Part shown: piece by piece, positions 18,523 through 25,413 of the stretch | How positions within the stretch are numbered: position 1 is the first letter of the stretch | Layout of the letters: the number at the start of each line of letters is the position of its first letter | Assembly (NCBI RefSeq): GCF_014204935.1 | Contig: NZ_JACHMJ010000001.1 | Coordinates: forward strand, 744,001 to 808,000 | DNA: 64,000 nt | Source: Conyzicola lurida | GTDB taxonomy: Bacteria; Actinomycetota; Actinomycetes; Actinomycetales; Microbacteriaceae | Direction of reading: 5' to 3' | The notes under the pieces: generated by a model | Seen by the model: the letters and a program-made list of their open reading frames with translations, nothing else | What the model was told of the DNA's origin: nothing | Database searches by the model: none | Position numbers and translations under genes: made by a program

Positions 18523-18807
18523 CTAGACGCGCGGCGAGATCGAGAAGCGCACTGCTCCGTCGTCGTCGCGGTTGGCGTCGAGCTGCTTGTCGGCGAGGGA
18601 ATCCGCCGCGTTCTTCTCGAGGAAGACGTGGGCGCCGTTGTTCTCGACGACCTGGTCGTAGAGCTCGGCGGTGGGGGCCATGGTGACCTCGAAGTTGCTG
18701 GTGTCGTTCTCGAGGGTGGCGATGCGAAGGCCGCCCTCCGTGCTTCCGGTGCTGCGACCGGCGAGGTCCTTGACGATGGTGGCGGCGTTGTCGGTGAGTG
18801 TGAGCAT
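18523..18807 (-). CDS. HesB/IscA-like protein without cysteines
   Basis: A 94-residue protein resembling the HesB/IscA core: TLTDNAATIVKDL at the start, GGLRIATL, and a C-terminal VRFSISPRV strand. Real A-type Fe-S carriers use three conserved cysteines; this protein has none at all, so it cannot carry a cluster in the usual way. Related cysteine-free proteins are found in actinobacteria and their role is unknown. The start at 18807 is chosen because GGAAGGAG lies 6 bases upstream; an in-frame ATG at 18834 lacks such a site. Confidence 0.7.
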   Translation of the reverse strand: MLTLTDNAATIVKDLAGRSTGSTEGGLRIATLENDTSNFEVTMAPTAELYDQVVENNGAHVFLEKNAADSLADKQLDANRDDDGAVRFSISPRV

Positions 18808-18999
18808 GGTTGCTCCTTCCGGTTTGGCTTTCACGAGTCAGCTACGTTCGTCGCCTCGGCGGCCCGATGCAAACTCTGGGGCCGACTCGGAGGTACTTCA
18901 CAAGTTCGTGACGGCCGGTTTTCTCCACAGAAACCTGACTCCCGTCCGAAACCTGGTGGCGACTCCGTAGGGTTCGATCGTGGTAGCCACGAGGTGGAG

Positions 19000-19475: not shown

Positions 19476-19895
19476 CTAGCGGCGCGTGAGCAGCAGCACG
19501 GGAATCGTGCGGTCGCCCGCGCGCTGCTCGTAGGCGGCGAATCCGGGGGAGCGGCTGGTGAACTTCGCCCAGGCCGCGTCCCGCTCGTCTCCTTCGAGAA
19601 CGGATGCCGCGACCGGCACGGTCTCGACCGCACCGGCGCCGGGCGACTCGACAACGGTCGACGGCCCGGCGACGAGGTTGTGGAACCATGCCGGGTGCTT
19701 CGGGGCCCCGGCCGCCGACGCGGCGACGAGCCAGCCGTCACCATCGGGGATCGCCATGAGCGGCGCGACCCGCTCGGCACCGGACTTCGCACCGCGGTGG
19801 TGCACGAGGATCAGGGCGTCGCCGAAGCCGTTCGCCGTGACGACGCCGTTGTTCTGGCGGAACTCGGCGATGATCTGGTCGTTGAATGACGTCAT
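19476..19895 (-). CDS. F420-type nitroreductase (deazaflavin-dependent, Ddn family)
   Basis: A 139-residue protein of the split-beta-barrel Ddn family. Typical segments are LILVHHRGAKSGAERVAPLM near residues 30-50, GWLVAASAAGAPKHPAWFHNL and VPVAASVLEGDERDAAWAKF. Members use reduced cofactor F420 to reduce quinones or nitro compounds; some bind FMN or haem instead. Ending with PVLLLTRR, it matches family length. A TACAGT hexamer ends 6 bases before the ATG, so it probably has its own leaderless transcript. Confidence 0.87.
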   Translation of the reverse strand: MTSFNDQIIAEFRQNNGVVTANGFGDALILVHHRGAKSGAERVAPLMAIPDGDGWLVAASAAGAPKHPAWFHNLVAGPSTVVESPGAGAVETVPVAASVLEGDERDAAWAKFTSRSPGFAAYEQRAGDRTIPVLLLTRR

Positions 19896-19937: not shown

Positions 19938-20372
19938 TCAGCGCTTACGCGCACGCCACGCGGCGAAGGCACCGGTCGACCACAGCGCCCAGAGCACGAG
20001 CACCGGCTGGAAGATCAGGCGGATACCGCGGGCGGCGTCGGTCGAAAGGCCGAACGCGTCGGTGCGGGTGACCAGCTGCGAGATATTGCCGGGGAAGATC
20101 GCGACGAAGAACGCGGCGACGATGAAACCGACGGCGACCTTCTGGCGGGGCAGACCCACGAGGGAGGCGCCGAGACCGATCTCGACGATGCCCGAGGCGA
20201 GCACCACGAAGTCCTTGTCGAGCGGCAGCCACTCCGGAACCTGCGCCTGGAACGAGTCGCGGGCGAACGTGAGGTGGCTGATGCCGGCGAGCATCAGCAC
20301 CGCCCCCAGACCGATGCGTCCGATGGTGCGCGGTACGGAGGAGGGCGCGAGTTTCGCCAGTTCGGTCGTCAT
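19938..20372 (-). CDS. DoxX-like membrane protein
   Basis: A 144-residue protein with four hydrophobic segments: the first is RIGLGAVLMLAGISHL, then FVVLASGIVEIGLGASLVGL, VAVGFIVAAFFVAIFPGNI and LIFQPVLVLWALWSTGAF. The pattern matches DoxX/DUF4267-like small membrane proteins, often linked to redox or quinone metabolism. A TAGGCT hexamer (20385-20380) overlaps the stop codon of the upstream fusion gene and ends 7 bases before the ATG, so an internal promoter is likely. Confidence 0.75.
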   Translation of the reverse strand: MTTELAKLAPSSVPRTIGRIGLGAVLMLAGISHLTFARDSFQAQVPEWLPLDKDFVVLASGIVEIGLGASLVGLPRQKVAVGFIVAAFFVAIFPGNISQLVTRTDAFGLSTDAARGIRLIFQPVLVLWALWSTGAFAAWRARKR

Positions 20373-20382
20373 GTCGCCCAGC

Positions 20383-22335
20383 CTACGTCTGTGTCACGCC
20401 CTCCGCGGCGAGAGCGCGCGACACGGCAGCGACGGTGGTCGCCACGTCCGCGTCGTCCGTCGACCAGTTGCTCACCGAGATGCGCAGCACGTCCCGGTCG
20501 TGCCACCGCGAGCCCGACATCCACACGGTGCCCTCGTCCATCACCCGCTGGGTGACACGGCGCGTGCGCTCGTCGGTGCCGAAGGCCAGACTCACCTGGG
20601 TGAACGCGACCTCGTTCAGCACCTCGACCCCGGGCAGGGCGCCGAGCCCGTCGGCCAGCGCCCGCGCGTTCGCGGCGAGTCCCTCGACGAGGGCGACGGT
20701 GCCCGACCGGCCGAGCGACCGCAGTGCCGCCCAGACCGGCAGCTCGCGTGCCCGACGCGACATCTCCGGAACCTTCTCCCACGGGTCGGCGGGGGCGCTG
20801 CCCTCCTGGATGAGGTAGCTCGCGTGTGCCCCGAACGCCGACTGGACCGCCTCGGGGCGGGCGACGACAGCGACCCCGCAGTCGTACGGCACGTTGAGGG
20901 TCTTGTGCGCGTCGGTCGCCCACGAGTCGGCCCCGTCGACGCCGTCGAGCGCCTCGCGGTAGCGCGGGCTGGCCGCCGCCCAGAGTCCGAACGCGCCGTC
21001 GACGTGCACCCACGCACCGTGGTCGTGCGCGAGCCGGATGCACTCGCGCATCGGGTCGAAGGCCCCCGAGTGGATGTTGCCGGCCTGCAGCCCGACGATG
21101 ACCGGCCCGTCGACGGCGTCGAGGGCTTCGCCGAGCGCCGCGGGCAGGATGCGCCCCTGGTCGTCCGTCGCGACGGTGCGGGGTTCGCCGAGGCCGAGAT
21201 ACCGCAGGGCGAGGTCGACCGAGACGTGGCTCTCGTCGCCGACGAGGACGGTGATGCGCGGCGACCCCGTGAGCCCGTCGCGGTGCAGGTTCCAGCCAGC
21301 GGCATCCAACACCGCCTTTCGTCCCGCCGCCAGCCCGACGAAGTTGGCCATCGTTCCGCCGGTGGTGAAGCCGAGCGCCGCCGTCGACGGCAGGCCGAGC
21401 AGGTCGATCAGCCACCGGCCGGCGATTCCTTCGACGGCGGCCGTCGCCGGGGTCGCGAAGCGCATCGCCGCGTTCTGGTCCCACGCGCTCGCGAGCCAGT
21501 CGGCGGCCAGGGCGGCGGGCAGCGTGCCGCCCATGACCCAGCCGAAGAAGCGGCCGGACGGGATCGCCATGAGGCCGGGCTCGCACATCGCCGCGAGCTC
21601 GTCGACGACCGTCGCCGCGTCAGTCGGCCCGTCGGGCAGCGGGCCGGAGAACCGCGCTTCCAGCTCGTCGGCCGTCGTCGCGGGGGCGACCCGCCGGGTG
21701 GGGACCGAGTCGAGCCAGTCGAGAGCCCTCTCGTGGGCGCGTTCGAGCGCGGGCCGGTATCGGTCGGGCGGGCCGTCGCCGACGAGGGCAACGGCGAGTT
21801 CGTCGTCGAGCTCGGTCGGGTCGAGTTCGATGGCCAGAGATTGGATGGCGCGGCTGTAGAAATTGCGGGCCGCGGCGGCCAACGCGATATCGACGATCTC
21901 GCGGTCGGTGTAGCCGGCATCGCGCAGGCTCTGGCTGTCGGCCTCCACCATCGAGACGGACGACGTGCTGACCTTCTCGGCGAACTCCATCAGGGTCACC
22001 TCGGCCGGGGTCAGGCCGGCGTGGTGGTAGTCCCGGGCGATGGCGAGCAGCTGCTCGCGCCCGAAGATGCCGAGTGACTTGCGGCCGTGCGCGAGCAGGC
22101 AGTGCGACGACCGGAGCCCGCGCGCCGCGGCCAAGGTCGCGAGCTCGTACCGGCGCAGGCCGAGGGACGCGGCGATCGACCCGGTGAGCGACTCCCAGGC
22201 GGCGTACGCCTCGGAGTTCGCGGAGAGGATGCGGGTGTGGGCCGCGACGAAGCCGACGTCGGCGATGTCGGCATCGAAGAGTTCGGCCTGGTAGTCGTCG
22301 ACGGGTTGGCGGGCGGTGTTCTTGAAGATGGACAT
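20383..22335 (-). CDS. AhpD/carboxymuconolactone-decarboxylase-like domain fused to PLP decarboxylase-like enzyme
   Basis: A 650-residue fusion. Residues 1-190 match the AhpD/peroxidase-related (CMD) fold: the helix ELATLAAARGLRSSHCLLAH carries C79 and H83 of a C-x3-H variant of the CxxC/H peroxidatic site, followed by AGLTPAEVTLMEFAEKV. Residues 210-640 are a fold-type I PLP enzyme of the group II decarboxylase kind, with GFTTGGTMANFVGL, AWVHVDGAFGLWA and the Schiff-base lysine K478 in ATDAHKTLNVPYDCG. The first enzyme usually removes peroxide; the second usually decarboxylates an aromatic or acidic amino acid. GGAG lies 7 bases before the ATG. It follows HxlR by 55 bases and is probably controlled by it. 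Confidence 0.82.
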   Translation of the reverse strand: MSIFKNTARQPVDDYQAELFDADIADVGFVAAHTRILSANSEAYAAWESLTGSIAASLGLRRYELATLAAARGLRSSHCLLAHGRKSLGIFGREQLLAIARDYHHAGLTPAEVTLMEFAEKVSTSSVSMVEADSQSLRDAGYTDREIVDIALAAAARNFYSRAIQSLAIELDPTELDDELAVALVGDGPPDRYRPALERAHERALDWLDSVPTRRVAPATTADELEARFSGPLPDGPTDAATVVDELAAMCEPGLMAIPSGRFFGWVMGGTLPAALAADWLASAWDQNAAMRFATPATAAVEGIAGRWLIDLLGLPSTAALGFTTGGTMANFVGLAAGRKAVLDAAGWNLHRDGLTGSPRITVLVGDESHVSVDLALRYLGLGEPRTVATDDQGRILPAALGEALDAVDGPVIVGLQAGNIHSGAFDPMRECIRLAHDHGAWVHVDGAFGLWAAASPRYREALDGVDGADSWATDAHKTLNVPYDCGVAVVARPEAVQSAFGAHASYLIQEGSAPADPWEKVPEMSRRARELPVWAALRSLGRSGTVALVEGLAANARALADGLGALPGVEVLNEVAFTQVSLAFGTDERTRRVTQRVMDEGTVWMSGSRWHDRDVLRISVSNWSTDDADVATTVAAVSRALAAEGVTQT

Positions 22336-22390: not shown

Positions 22391-22732
22391 TTATGAACCC
22401 CAGCGCTGCTCCCAGATGACGAGCGGCTGCAGCGATTCCAGCAGGTCGGCGCCGCGTGGCGTGAGCCGGTAACGCACCTGCACCGGGGTGCTCGCGACGA
22501 CCTCGCGTTCGAGCATTCGGGCGGCCTCCAACTCCTTCAGCCGCTGGGAGAGCAGGCGGTCGGACAGCCCGGGCACGGCTGCCACGATGTCGCTGAACCG
22601 GGTCGCACCGCGGGCGATCGCGAGCAGGATGCCGGAGCTCCAGCGCTTGCCGACGAGCTCGACCGAGCTCTGGAAGCGGCGGCACGCCTCGTCGTCGATG
22701 TGCTGGATGTCGGTGGGAATCGTCTGAGTCAC
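22391..22732 (-). CDS. HxlR-family transcriptional regulator
   Basis: A 113-residue winged-helix regulator. The entry C-R-R-F-Q at residues 17-21 holds the near-N-terminal cysteine often used for redox or aldehyde sensing, then GKRWSSGILLAIARGATRFSDI and the recognition helix GLSDRLLSQRLKELE. The C-terminal wing ends LTPRGADLLESLQPLV. The GTG start lies 6 bases after TATCAT, so the message is probably leaderless. It is divergent from the luciferase-like fusion with about 65 bases between starts and precedes the AhpD-PLP fusion, so it probably regulates both. Confidence 0.9.
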   Translation of the reverse strand: MTQTIPTDIQHIDDEACRRFQSSVELVGKRWSSGILLAIARGATRFSDIVAAVPGLSDRLLSQRLKELEAARMLEREVVASTPVQVRYRLTPRGADLLESLQPLVIWEQRWGS

Positions 22733-22797
22733 TTACACATGATAAGCAGCTAATCGGGTGTTTGCACGGACCGTGCGCGGTGGGAGAGAGTGAGACC

Positions 22798-25044
22798 ATG
22801 CCCGACTACGGTTCCCCCCTCCAGTTCGGAACGTTCATCACGCCCTCCAACGCCGACCCGCAGCAGACGGTCGCACTCGCCGTGCTGAGCGAGACGCTCG
22901 GCTACGACCTCGTGACGTTCCAAGACCACCCGTACCAGGCGTCGTTCCTCGACACCTGGACGCTGATGACCTGGGTCGCCGCGCAGACCTCGACCATCCA
23001 CATCGCGCCCAACGTGCTCAACGTGCCGCTGCGGCCCGCCGCCGTCACCGCGCGGTCGGCCGCGAGCCTCGACCTGCTGTCCGGCGGACGGTTCGACCTC
23101 GCGCTCGGGTCCGGCGCGTTCTGGGACGCGATCGAGGCCATGGGCGGCACGAAGCTGACGCCCGGGCAGGCGGTCGACGCTCTGAGCGAAGCGATCGACG
23201 TGGTCCGCGGCATCTGGGCGGCGGGCGAGCGAGCGCCGTTGCGGCTCGAGGGGGAGCACTACCATCTGCGCGGTGCCAAGCGCGGGCCACTGCCAGCCCA
23301 CGACATCCCGATCTGGCTGGGTGCCTACAAACCGCGGATGCTGCGCCTCACCGGGCGCAAAGCCGACGGCTGGCTGCCCTCGCTCGGGTACCTGAAGCCG
23401 GGCGAGTTCGCCGCGGGCAACGCCGCCATCGACGAAGCGGCGCTCGCCGCGGGGCGCGACCCGCGCGAGATCCGGCGGCTCGCCAATATCGGCGGGCGGT
23501 TCGCCGCGGTCAACGGCGGATTCCTGAACGGGCCGAGCGCCCAGTGGGCCGACGAGCTGCTGCCGTACGTCGTCGACGACGGCGTCGGCACGTTCATCCT
23601 CGCCTCCGACGACCCGGCGACGCTGCAGCGATTCGCCGAGGAGGTCGCCCCCGCACTGCGCGAGGCCGTCGCCCGCGAACGCGCCACCGCCGGCACGACG
23701 ACCGGTACGGTCAAGCGCGCATCGGTGCTCGCCGCCCGGCGCGACGGCATCGACTACGACGCCGTACCAGCTGGCCTCGCCGCGGTCGAGCCGGGCGACA
23801 TCGGCTACGCCGGCGTGCGCAATACCTACATGCGCGGCGGCGCCCCGGGCCTCGTGCTGCAGCCCCGCGACACCGCCGAGGTCGTGTCGGCGCTCGCCTT
23901 CGCCCGCGCTCAGGGCGTACCGCTCGCCGTGCGCAGCGGCGGACACGGCATCAGCGGCCGCTCCACCAACGACGGCGGGGTCGTCATCGACCTCGGCGCG
24001 CTCGACACGATCGAGATCGTCGACGAGGCGACCCGTCGCGTCCGGGTCGGGCCGGGCGCCCGCTGGATGGACGTCGCCGCGGCCCTCGAGCCGCACGGCT
24101 GGGCGCTGAGCTCGGGCGACTACGGCGGGGTCGGCGTCGGCGGGCTCGCCACGGCCGGCGGCATCGGGTGGCTCGTGCGCGAGCACGGCCTGACGATCGA
24201 CCACCTGCGCCGCGTCGAGATCGTGCTCGCCGACGGCAGCGTGGTGACGGCGAGCGACGACGAGAACGCCGACCTGTTCTGGGCCGTGCGCGGTGCCGGC
24301 GCCAACTTCGGCATCGTCACCTCGTTCGAATTCGAGGTCGACGAGGTCGGGCCGCTCGGCTTCGCGCAGCTGGCCTTCGACGCGAGCGATACCGCGGCGT
24401 TCCTCGAGGGCTGGGGAGCGACCGTCGAGGCGTCACCCCGCGACCTCACCAGCTTCCTCATCATGGGTGCGCCGCGGCAGGGGCAGATGGTCGCGCAGAC
24501 CATGAACGTCGTCGACTCCGACGATCCCGAGACCATCGTGGCCCGCCTCCAGCCGATCGCCGACCTCGCGCCCATGCTGCAGCAGTCGGTGCAGCTCACC
24601 TCGTACGCGGCCATCATGGCGAACGCGTCGGGCGAGCCGCACAACGGGCAGGGCGAGCCGATCGCGCGCTCGGGCCTGCTCGAGTCGATCACCCCGGCGT
24701 TCGCGGCGGCCGCCCAGCGGATGCTCGCCACCGGCGACATCCACTTCTTTCAAATCAGGTCGGTCGGCGGTGCCGTCTCGGACGTGCCGGCGGATGCGAC
24801 GGCATACGCCCACCGGTCGGCGAACTTCTCCGTCGCGGCGATAGGCAGAAACGTCGAGCGGATGACGCAGCTGTGGGACGAACTCTTCGAGCACTTCAGC
24901 GGCCTCTACCTGAGTTTCGAGACCGACCTGGGCGCGGCGAGCCTCGAGGCCGCGTTCCCGCCGGCGACGATCGAGAGGCTGCGCGTGTTGAAGCGGCGGT
25001 ACGACCCGCAGAACACGTTCCGCGACAACTTCAATATCGTCTGA
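22798..25044 (+). CDS. Luciferase-like monooxygenase fused to FAD-linked berberine-bridge-type oxidase
   Basis: A 748-residue two-enzyme fusion. Residues 1-290 are a luciferase-like TIM barrel (FGTFITPSNADPQQTVAL; SLDLLSGGRFDLALGSGAFW), the class that uses FMN or F420. Residues 330-748 are a PCMH-type FAD domain: AVRSGGHGISGR carries H383, the expected covalent FAD histidine, and GVGVGGLATAGGIGWLVREH is the second FAD loop. It lacks the second cysteine of bicovalent members. The berberine-bridge tail YDPQNTFRDNFNI ends the protein. GGGAGAGAG precedes the ATG. Both halves oxidise organic substrates, so it may act on one substrate in two steps. Confidence 0.85.
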   Translation: MPDYGSPLQFGTFITPSNADPQQTVALAVLSETLGYDLVTFQDHPYQASFLDTWTLMTWVAAQTSTIHIAPNVLNVPLRPAAVTARSAASLDLLSGGRFDLALGSGAFWDAIEAMGGTKLTPGQAVDALSEAIDVVRGIWAAGERAPLRLEGEHYHLRGAKRGPLPAHDIPIWLGAYKPRMLRLTGRKADGWLPSLGYLKPGEFAAGNAAIDEAALAAGRDPREIRRLANIGGRFAAVNGGFLNGPSAQWADELLPYVVDDGVGTFILASDDPATLQRFAEEVAPALREAVARERATAGTTTGTVKRASVLAARRDGIDYDAVPAGLAAVEPGDIGYAGVRNTYMRGGAPGLVLQPRDTAEVVSALAFARAQGVPLAVRSGGHGISGRSTNDGGVVIDLGALDTIEIVDEATRRVRVGPGARWMDVAAALEPHGWALSSGDYGGVGVGGLATAGGIGWLVREHGLTIDHLRRVEIVLADGSVVTASDDENADLFWAVRGAGANFGIVTSFEFEVDEVGPLGFAQLAFDASDTAAFLEGWGATVEASPRDLTSFLIMGAPRQGQMVAQTMNVVDSDDPETIVARLQPIADLAPMLQQSVQLTSYAAIMANASGEPHNGQGEPIARSGLLESITPAFAAAAQRMLATGDIHFFQIRSVGGAVSDVPADATAYAHRSANFSVAAIGRNVERMTQLWDELFEHFSGLYLSFETDLGAASLEAAFPPATIERLRVLKRRYDPQNTFRDNFNIV

Positions 25045-25065: not shown

Positions 25066-25413
25066 TCAGCGCGACTGCCGCCGCTTGCCCGGCTTGCGCT
25101 CGCCCTTGACGGCGGGGGCGCGCCCCTTGCCCTTGGAGGCCTTGGCCTTGCCGCCCGGTGCGGCGACGTTGGCACGCGCCGAGGCGGCCATCGCCTTCAG
25201 CTGGCGGTGCGTCTCGACCAGGAACTCCTCACCCTGTGGCGTGAGAACCGTCGTCGGGGCGGTGCGGTCGAACAGGTGGTAGCCCAGCTCGTCTTCGAGC
25301 GCGCGGATCGACAGCAGCAGCGACGAGCGCGGAACGCCGACCCGCTTCGCGGCGTGCGCGAAGTGCAGCTCCTCGGCGGCGGCTTCGAAGTGCCGCAGGA
25401 GAGTGGTGTCCAC
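25066..25413 (-). CDS. LysR-type HTH protein lacking the effector domain
   Basis: A 115-residue protein. Residues 1-65 are a clear LysR HTH (LRHFEAAAEELHFAHAAKRV, then SSLLLSIRALEDELGYHLFDR). The C-terminal effector domain of about 200 residues is absent; instead there is a short helix (EEFLVETHRQLKAMAAS) and a lysine/arginine-rich tail (KAKASKGKGRAP and KGERKPGKRRQSR). The tail should bind DNA non-specifically. It is convergent with the luciferase-like fusion, with 21 bases between stops. The GTG start has AAAGG upstream. It may be a genuine small protein rather than a broken gene, since the tail is well formed. Confidence 0.7.
   Translation of the reverse strand: MDTTLLRHFEAAAEELHFAHAAKRVGVPRSSLLLSIRALEDELGYHLFDRTAPTTVLTPQGEEFLVETHRQLKAMAASARANVAAPGGKAKASKGKGRAPAVKGERKPGKRRQSR

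Follow-up and report, generated by a model that had tools for sequence, protein, structure and literature searches.

A probable lineage-restricted fusion of an AhpD-like domain with a group II PLP decarboxylase in Conyzicola lurida

The window, by which we mean the whole stretch of 64,000 nucleotides that was analysed, carries a minus-strand reading frame that is uninterrupted over 650 codons. It was confirmed that this frame consists of a complete AhpD/CMD-like domain (residue 1 to about 188) followed by a group II PLP decarboxylase that is nearly complete (about 190-650). Judged from the sequence, it is probably a genuine fusion of two common enzymes, met once, and young. The reading that we find reasonably likely is that the fusion is real and restricted to its lineage, that the decarboxylase half works, and that the two halves are linked for co-expression or assembly and not for shared chemistry. 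The single open reading frame and both domain identities given in an earlier note on this DNA agree with the matches to Pfam, NCBIfam and solved chains, and the residues named there (C79, H83 and K478) are all present. The features are collected in Table 1.

Table 1. Fused gene, its parts and its neighbours, in window positions
Feature	Position	Strand	Evidence
Fused gene, AhpD/CMD-like domain and group II PLP decarboxylase (650 aa)	20383..22335	minus	reading frame; profile and structure matches
AhpD/CMD-like part, residues 1-188 (E64, S76, H78, C79, H83)	21772..22335	minus	family model; stand-alone relatives
Group II PLP decarboxylase part, residues 190-650 (H370, D446, H477, K478, Y507)	20383..21768	minus	Pfam; structures; relatives
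Junction, residues 186-192, between AL-V of the AhpD-like end and Tyr193	21760..21780	minus	alignments; start-codon scan
HxlR/DUF24 regulator with N-terminal Cys (Cys17), directly upstream of the fused gene	22391..22732	minus	profile matches
MauE/DoxX-like membrane protein, 10 bases downstream of the fused gene	19938..20372	minus	two matches just under Pfam cut-offs
F420H2-dependent quinone reductase-like protein	19476..19895	minus	Pfam; NCBIfam

The identity of the C-terminal part is supported by both profile and residues. Pfam Pyridoxal_deC (PF00282) matches residues 233-582 with an E value of 3.6e-41 and 141.6 bits against a cut-off of 27, and AADC/GAD-type solved chains match the remainder of the protein with E values down to 5e-29. 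In an alignment of 38 rows chosen from 75 loci, H370, D446, H477 and K478 are found in all 38 relatives and Y507 in 37; the H477-K478 pair in 38 of 38, together with the PF00282 score, places the protein among the group II PLP decarboxylases. A structure model was made with an alignment of decarboxylase relatives only, and its fold search bears on the decarboxylase half only. This half is mostly confident and its top fold matches are CSAD, TDC, DDC and GAD structures; the structural matches listed, which also include histidine decarboxylase, have 19-26% identity and do not point to one substrate. Two of the listed structures (6eeq and 6eei) are aldehyde synthases, so the fold by itself does not settle the reaction. 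The genomic context does not reveal the substrate either, since no family besides the decarboxylase occurred in more than 6 loci when the genes around the 75 decarboxylase loci were called with a crude ORF caller and clustered.

More can be said about the reaction from two residues. In the alignment with 3k40, H370 stands opposite a His and Y507 opposite the Tyr of a YLKH segment, which we take to be positions 192 and 332 of mammalian DDC. In PMC7497351, the loop Tyr is tied to amine formation and Phe to aldehyde synthases that also release H2O2, and the markers of aldehyde synthases are Phe for the loop Tyr in plants or Asn for His192 in insects. These markers of the H2O2-forming aromatic acetaldehyde synthases are absent from the fused protein, where H370 and Y507 are kept and both are conserved. 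Therefore, peroxide production by the PLP half is not favoured.

The N-terminal part scores below the curated cut-offs of both models that match it. Pfam CMD (PF02627) matches residues 42-119 (E 3.2e-4; 21.1 bits, cut-off 23), and NCBIfam TIGR01926 (peroxidase-related) matches residues 14-169 (E 7.4e-17; 61.7 bits, cut-off 81.8). Nevertheless, sequence comparison points to a clear CMD homology: five solved AhpD-like chains (3c1l, 2oyo, 6k40, 2pfx and 2prr) match within residues 19-174 with E values from 7e-11 to 5e-8, and the part is 53-64% identical to 19 stand-alone homologues of the same bacterial family. The latter were picked from the matches listed; 18 of them come from other genera of the family and one from a congener (G003). 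S76, C79 and H83 are each present in all 19, E64 in 18 and H78 in 16; of the 49 columns that are invariant among the stand-alone proteins, 46 are retained in the fused one, S76, C79 and H83 included. The structure model has a pLDDT mostly below 50 in this half, for which the alignment had no related rows.

The earlier note had remarked that the site is C-x3-H rather than CxxC and that its chemistry may differ. The C-x3-H site is as described. Of the two Cys residues that AhpD pairs, the first is replaced by Ser (S76-x-x-C79), which speaks against classical AhpD activity. The same Ser is shared by all 19 stand-alone relatives, and so the difference is a trait of the subfamily and is not specific to the fusion. 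PMC3141380 assigns roles to Glu118, Cys130, His132, Cys133 and His137 of M. tuberculosis AhpD, and describes TTHA0727 of Thermus thermophilus, with Ser for Cys130, as lacking peroxidase activity and of unassigned function.

The same comparison bears on the possibility that the fusion is neutral and heading for decay, with the decarboxylase half alone mattering and the AhpD-like half a passenger. Three of the 49 otherwise invariant columns are altered in the fused part, compared with 0 to 2 for each stand-alone protein in a leave-one-out count, and in a midpoint-rooted tree of 20 tips, 12 of whose 17 inner forks are unresolved, its end branch is the longest (0.93; the next is 0.65 and the median 0.27). 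Both could reflect relaxed constraint on the AhpD-like half. However, the frame and the active-site residues are intact across its 188 codons, and we consider decay quite unlikely.

The position of the joint was compared with the ends of the separate proteins. It falls at, or just before, the C-terminus of all 19 stand-alone AhpD-like relatives, which are 188-196 residues long when counted from the aligned start and all of which have an AL motif a few residues from the end. In the fused protein, AL is at 183-184 and only a few residues follow before Tyr193, where the decarboxylase homology begins; in congeners G002 and G001 the decarboxylases appear to start 6 and 23 residues, respectively, ahead of the Tyr that corresponds to it. 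With the joint near the end of one protein and near the start of the other, nearly all of both parents is retained. The third-position G+C of the two parts is 93.5% and 93.8%.

The finding of the fusion in a single genome would also be expected if a sequencing or assembly error had merged two adjacent genes, and the earlier note named such an error near residue 195 as what would refute it. We regard this as highly improbable, first from the layout of the codons. A stop and a start are both missing at the joint: the in-frame starts around it are a TTG at codon 152 and then an ATG at codon 250, with none between, and the sole other start codon nearby is an out-of-frame TTG at codon 182. If a frameshift made this TTG the start of a second gene, the AhpD-like frame would read through to a stop at codon 238, which is unlike any of the 19 stand-alone proteins. 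A single base error at this place therefore gives no two normal genes, and the sequence around the joint makes a merger of that kind appear unlikely. In addition, the genome is one contig and 99.99% complete, both flanks of the fused gene are syntenic with G002, and the genome gave no second copy of the AhpD-like part; its three further PF02627 genes are located elsewhere.

The distribution of the architecture was evaluated with whole-protein searches of 60 relatives and of 398 genomes from the family, 396 from the order and 396 from the phylum, sets that overlap and include the own genome. In the family, order and phylum searches at most 3 first-look candidates were scored per genome, and the matches listed reach about E 2e-54, E 1e-100 and about E 1e-33, respectively; a weak or distant fusion beyond these limits could be missed. 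Among the matches listed in every search, both parts are found in one protein in the own genome alone, and so the recurring two-domain architecture that the earlier note would take as support for a real system did not emerge. The note had also said that a joint confined to this genome would refute its reading, and among the matches listed this is the outcome. It calls the two proteins normally separate; in related bacteria they stand apart as two genes. In the family set, 165 of the 398 genomes, the own one among these 165, match at least one of the parts at E up to 1e-40. Among the matches listed, genomes with separate genes for both parts include G003, G033, G130, G158, G203, G326 and G356, and the two genes are on different contigs or hundreds of kilobases apart. 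Within the genus, the AhpD-like part is found only in the own genome and G003 among 6 genomes, own included; its absence from G001, G004 and G005 is weaker, these being less than 97% complete or more than 5% contaminated.

A scan of named GTDB contigs with six peptide patterns, directed at close relatives, gave 75 loci, all matching the decarboxylase part, with Microbacteriaceae contigs as the closest named relatives. The AhpD-like part was found near the decarboxylase in none of the 109 fetched loci (L003-L111), 37 of which are under 5 kb and some of which are the same place duplicated across two collections. Likewise, none of the 19 loci of stand-alone AhpD-like genes has a decarboxylase nearby. 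Four long listed matches, G689 (47-644), G470 (134-643), G278 (126-644) and G454, were taken as candidate fusions and rejected after their stretches were fetched: the local BLAST alignments start at residues 191, 134, 207 and 192, respectively, and the AhpD-like part alone, searched against all four at E up to 1, gave one 13-residue piece in G278. There are further long listed matches outside the fetched four, for example G011 from residue 157, G095 from 160 and G296 from 155.

Two decarboxylase relatives are recorded here separately. Contig 42 of G001 (L133) holds a second relative, in pieces 62-70% identical and cut by the contig end; we rejected the idea that it is frameshifted, as its two pieces are in one frame. 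A contig whose label, Sporosarcina beigongshangi, would make it a firmicute (L022) carries a Microbacteriaceae-like decarboxylase, 68% identical to that of the window, owing either to transfer or to a contaminating contig.

The loci of the congeners were compared with the window. In G002 (L135) the order is TetR, ABC-F, MauE, a homologue of window gene 18523-18834, decarboxylase and HxlR, followed by a luciferase-like (LLM)/FAD enzyme, a LysR-like gene, a Lon-like gene and a second ABC-F. This is the order of the window, except that MauE is on the opposite side of the homologue of gene 18523-18834; there is also no match to the F420 quinone reductase at this locus at E up to 1e-3. The decarboxylase of G002 starts about 70 bases past the HxlR stop and is without the AhpD-like part. 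In G003 (L136), a stand-alone AhpD-like gene lies between the Lon-like gene and the homologue of gene 18523-18834, the decarboxylase is about 240 kb from it and the HxlR-LLM/FAD pair is elsewhere, while in G001 the decarboxylase is behind an unrelated gene. As the syntenic locus of G002 consists of HxlR and then a stand-alone decarboxylase, we suggest that the lineage of the window acquired or retained the AhpD-like gene there and fused it; the differing layouts of the congeners suggest that this happened at a variable locus.

Beside the fused gene is a second two-domain fusion (22762-25044, plus strand), the LLM/FAD enzyme, which combines a luciferase-like part with an FAD-linked oxidase with a BBE end. 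It recurs in G002 over residues 9-760 (78%) and in G003 over at least residues 13-481, where the fetched stretch ends, and its gene is divergent from HxlR in the window, G002 and G003. Next to it (25066-25413, minus strand) is a 115-aa protein with only a LysR-type HTH and a Lys/Arg-rich tail. It has conserved counterparts in G002 (83%) as well as in L116-L119 and L122 (55-69%), and so it is probably not a broken LysR gene.

Another reading is a functional redox pairing, in which the AhpD-like half shields the PLP half or clears peroxide or a reactive carbonyl arising from decarboxylation, as part of an HxlR-controlled cassette that includes the DoxX-like and F420H2-quinone reductase genes. 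The regulator has an N-terminal Cys and a weak match to the model of redox-sensing RrpB (E 2e-11; 44.1 bits, cut-off 175), and DUF24 regulators are described in PMC6943732 as sensing HOCl, quinones and diamide via such a Cys. Close behind the fused gene, on its strand, are the genes for the MauE/DoxX-like and F420H2 quinone reductase-like proteins, and in G107 a MauE homologue adjoins a stand-alone AhpD-like gene. PLP decarboxylases are also able to react with O2, according to PMC7497351. However, HxlR is beside the decarboxylase in only 1 of the 109 fetched loci (L004, G002; 37 are shorter than 5 kb) and near none of the 19 stand-alone AhpD-like genes, and MauE is found in 0 of 109 and 1 of 19. 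Weak matches to the F420 quinone reductase (E up to 1e-6) occur in 3 of the 109 decarboxylase loci. Neither part of the fusion is accompanied by these three genes in a conserved way, and a conserved system with HxlR nearby is not upheld by these counts. Furthermore, the architecture is not repeated among the matches listed, the AhpD-like site is without its first Cys, and His370 and Tyr507 favour amine formation over oxidative deamination. With the first Cys missing and these two residues kept, the proposal of an AhpD half clearing a by-product or peroxide of the PLP half gained no positive support, and we consider the pairing unlikely.

It is very doubtful, in our judgement, that a new bifunctional enzyme has arisen in which, under a redox-sensing HxlR, the one-Cys AhpD-like domain joined to the decarboxylase captures a reactive product or redox-switches the PLP site, with the DoxX-like and F420H2-quinone reductase-like proteins encoded nearby as partners. 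No literature linking AhpD-like and decarboxylase sites in one pathway was found in the titles and abstract openings surveyed. The fusion would matter more only if both sites acted in one pathway.

We account for the fusion, in the lineage-restricted reading that we prefer, as follows. A complete stand-alone AhpD-like gene would have come in after HxlR and ahead of a group II decarboxylase gene that also stood alone. Its stop codon and the start codon of the decarboxylase gene would then have been lost, giving one polypeptide, which may be tethered or bifunctional. Expression would probably come from the promoter that formerly served the decarboxylase and is shared with HxlR. From its conserved residues, the C-terminal half is most likely an ordinary PLP amino-acid decarboxylase with an amine and CO2 as products, Lys478 presumably forming the Schiff base and His370 and Tyr507 taking part in protonation. 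The N-terminal half is predicted to have an AhpD-like helical fold with a reactive Cys79 beside His83; lacking the first Cys of the pair, it is not expected to act as a classical lipoamide-linked alkyl hydroperoxidase. The two were probably joined for co-expression or assembly and not for shared chemistry. It looks like a clean case of a young domain fusion, with the parents separate in close relatives and the locus of a congener unfused. Seen in one genome, it may also be an accident confined to this isolate or to its assembly.

When compared with known systems, the locus differs from a conserved HxlR-controlled AhpD-decarboxylase system, as the joint is found in the own genome only among the matches listed and HxlR in one decarboxylase locus. 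M. tuberculosis AhpD (PMC3141380) has the CxxC pair Cys130/Cys133 where the window protein has S76-x-x-C79, and its proton relay Glu118/His132/His137 corresponds to E64/H78/H83 by spacing only. TTHA0727, a Ser-variant CMD, also has Ser at the AhpD Cys130 position and is likened here by description in the same source. The N-terminal half is close to the TIGR01926/CMD superfamily (PF02627), with which it agrees in length and in the E-x11-S-x-H-C-x3-H site, although it scores under both cut-offs. Relatives of the TIGR01926 type are stand-alone proteins of about 189 aa (n=19), whereas the window protein is fused at the C-terminus of that domain. The relatives of the decarboxylase half are also stand-alone in the 109 fetched loci. 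At 19-26% identity to the listed structures, this half shares with the AADC/CSAD/GAD-type group II decarboxylases (PF00282) the same PLP Lys, Asp, stacking His and loop Tyr.
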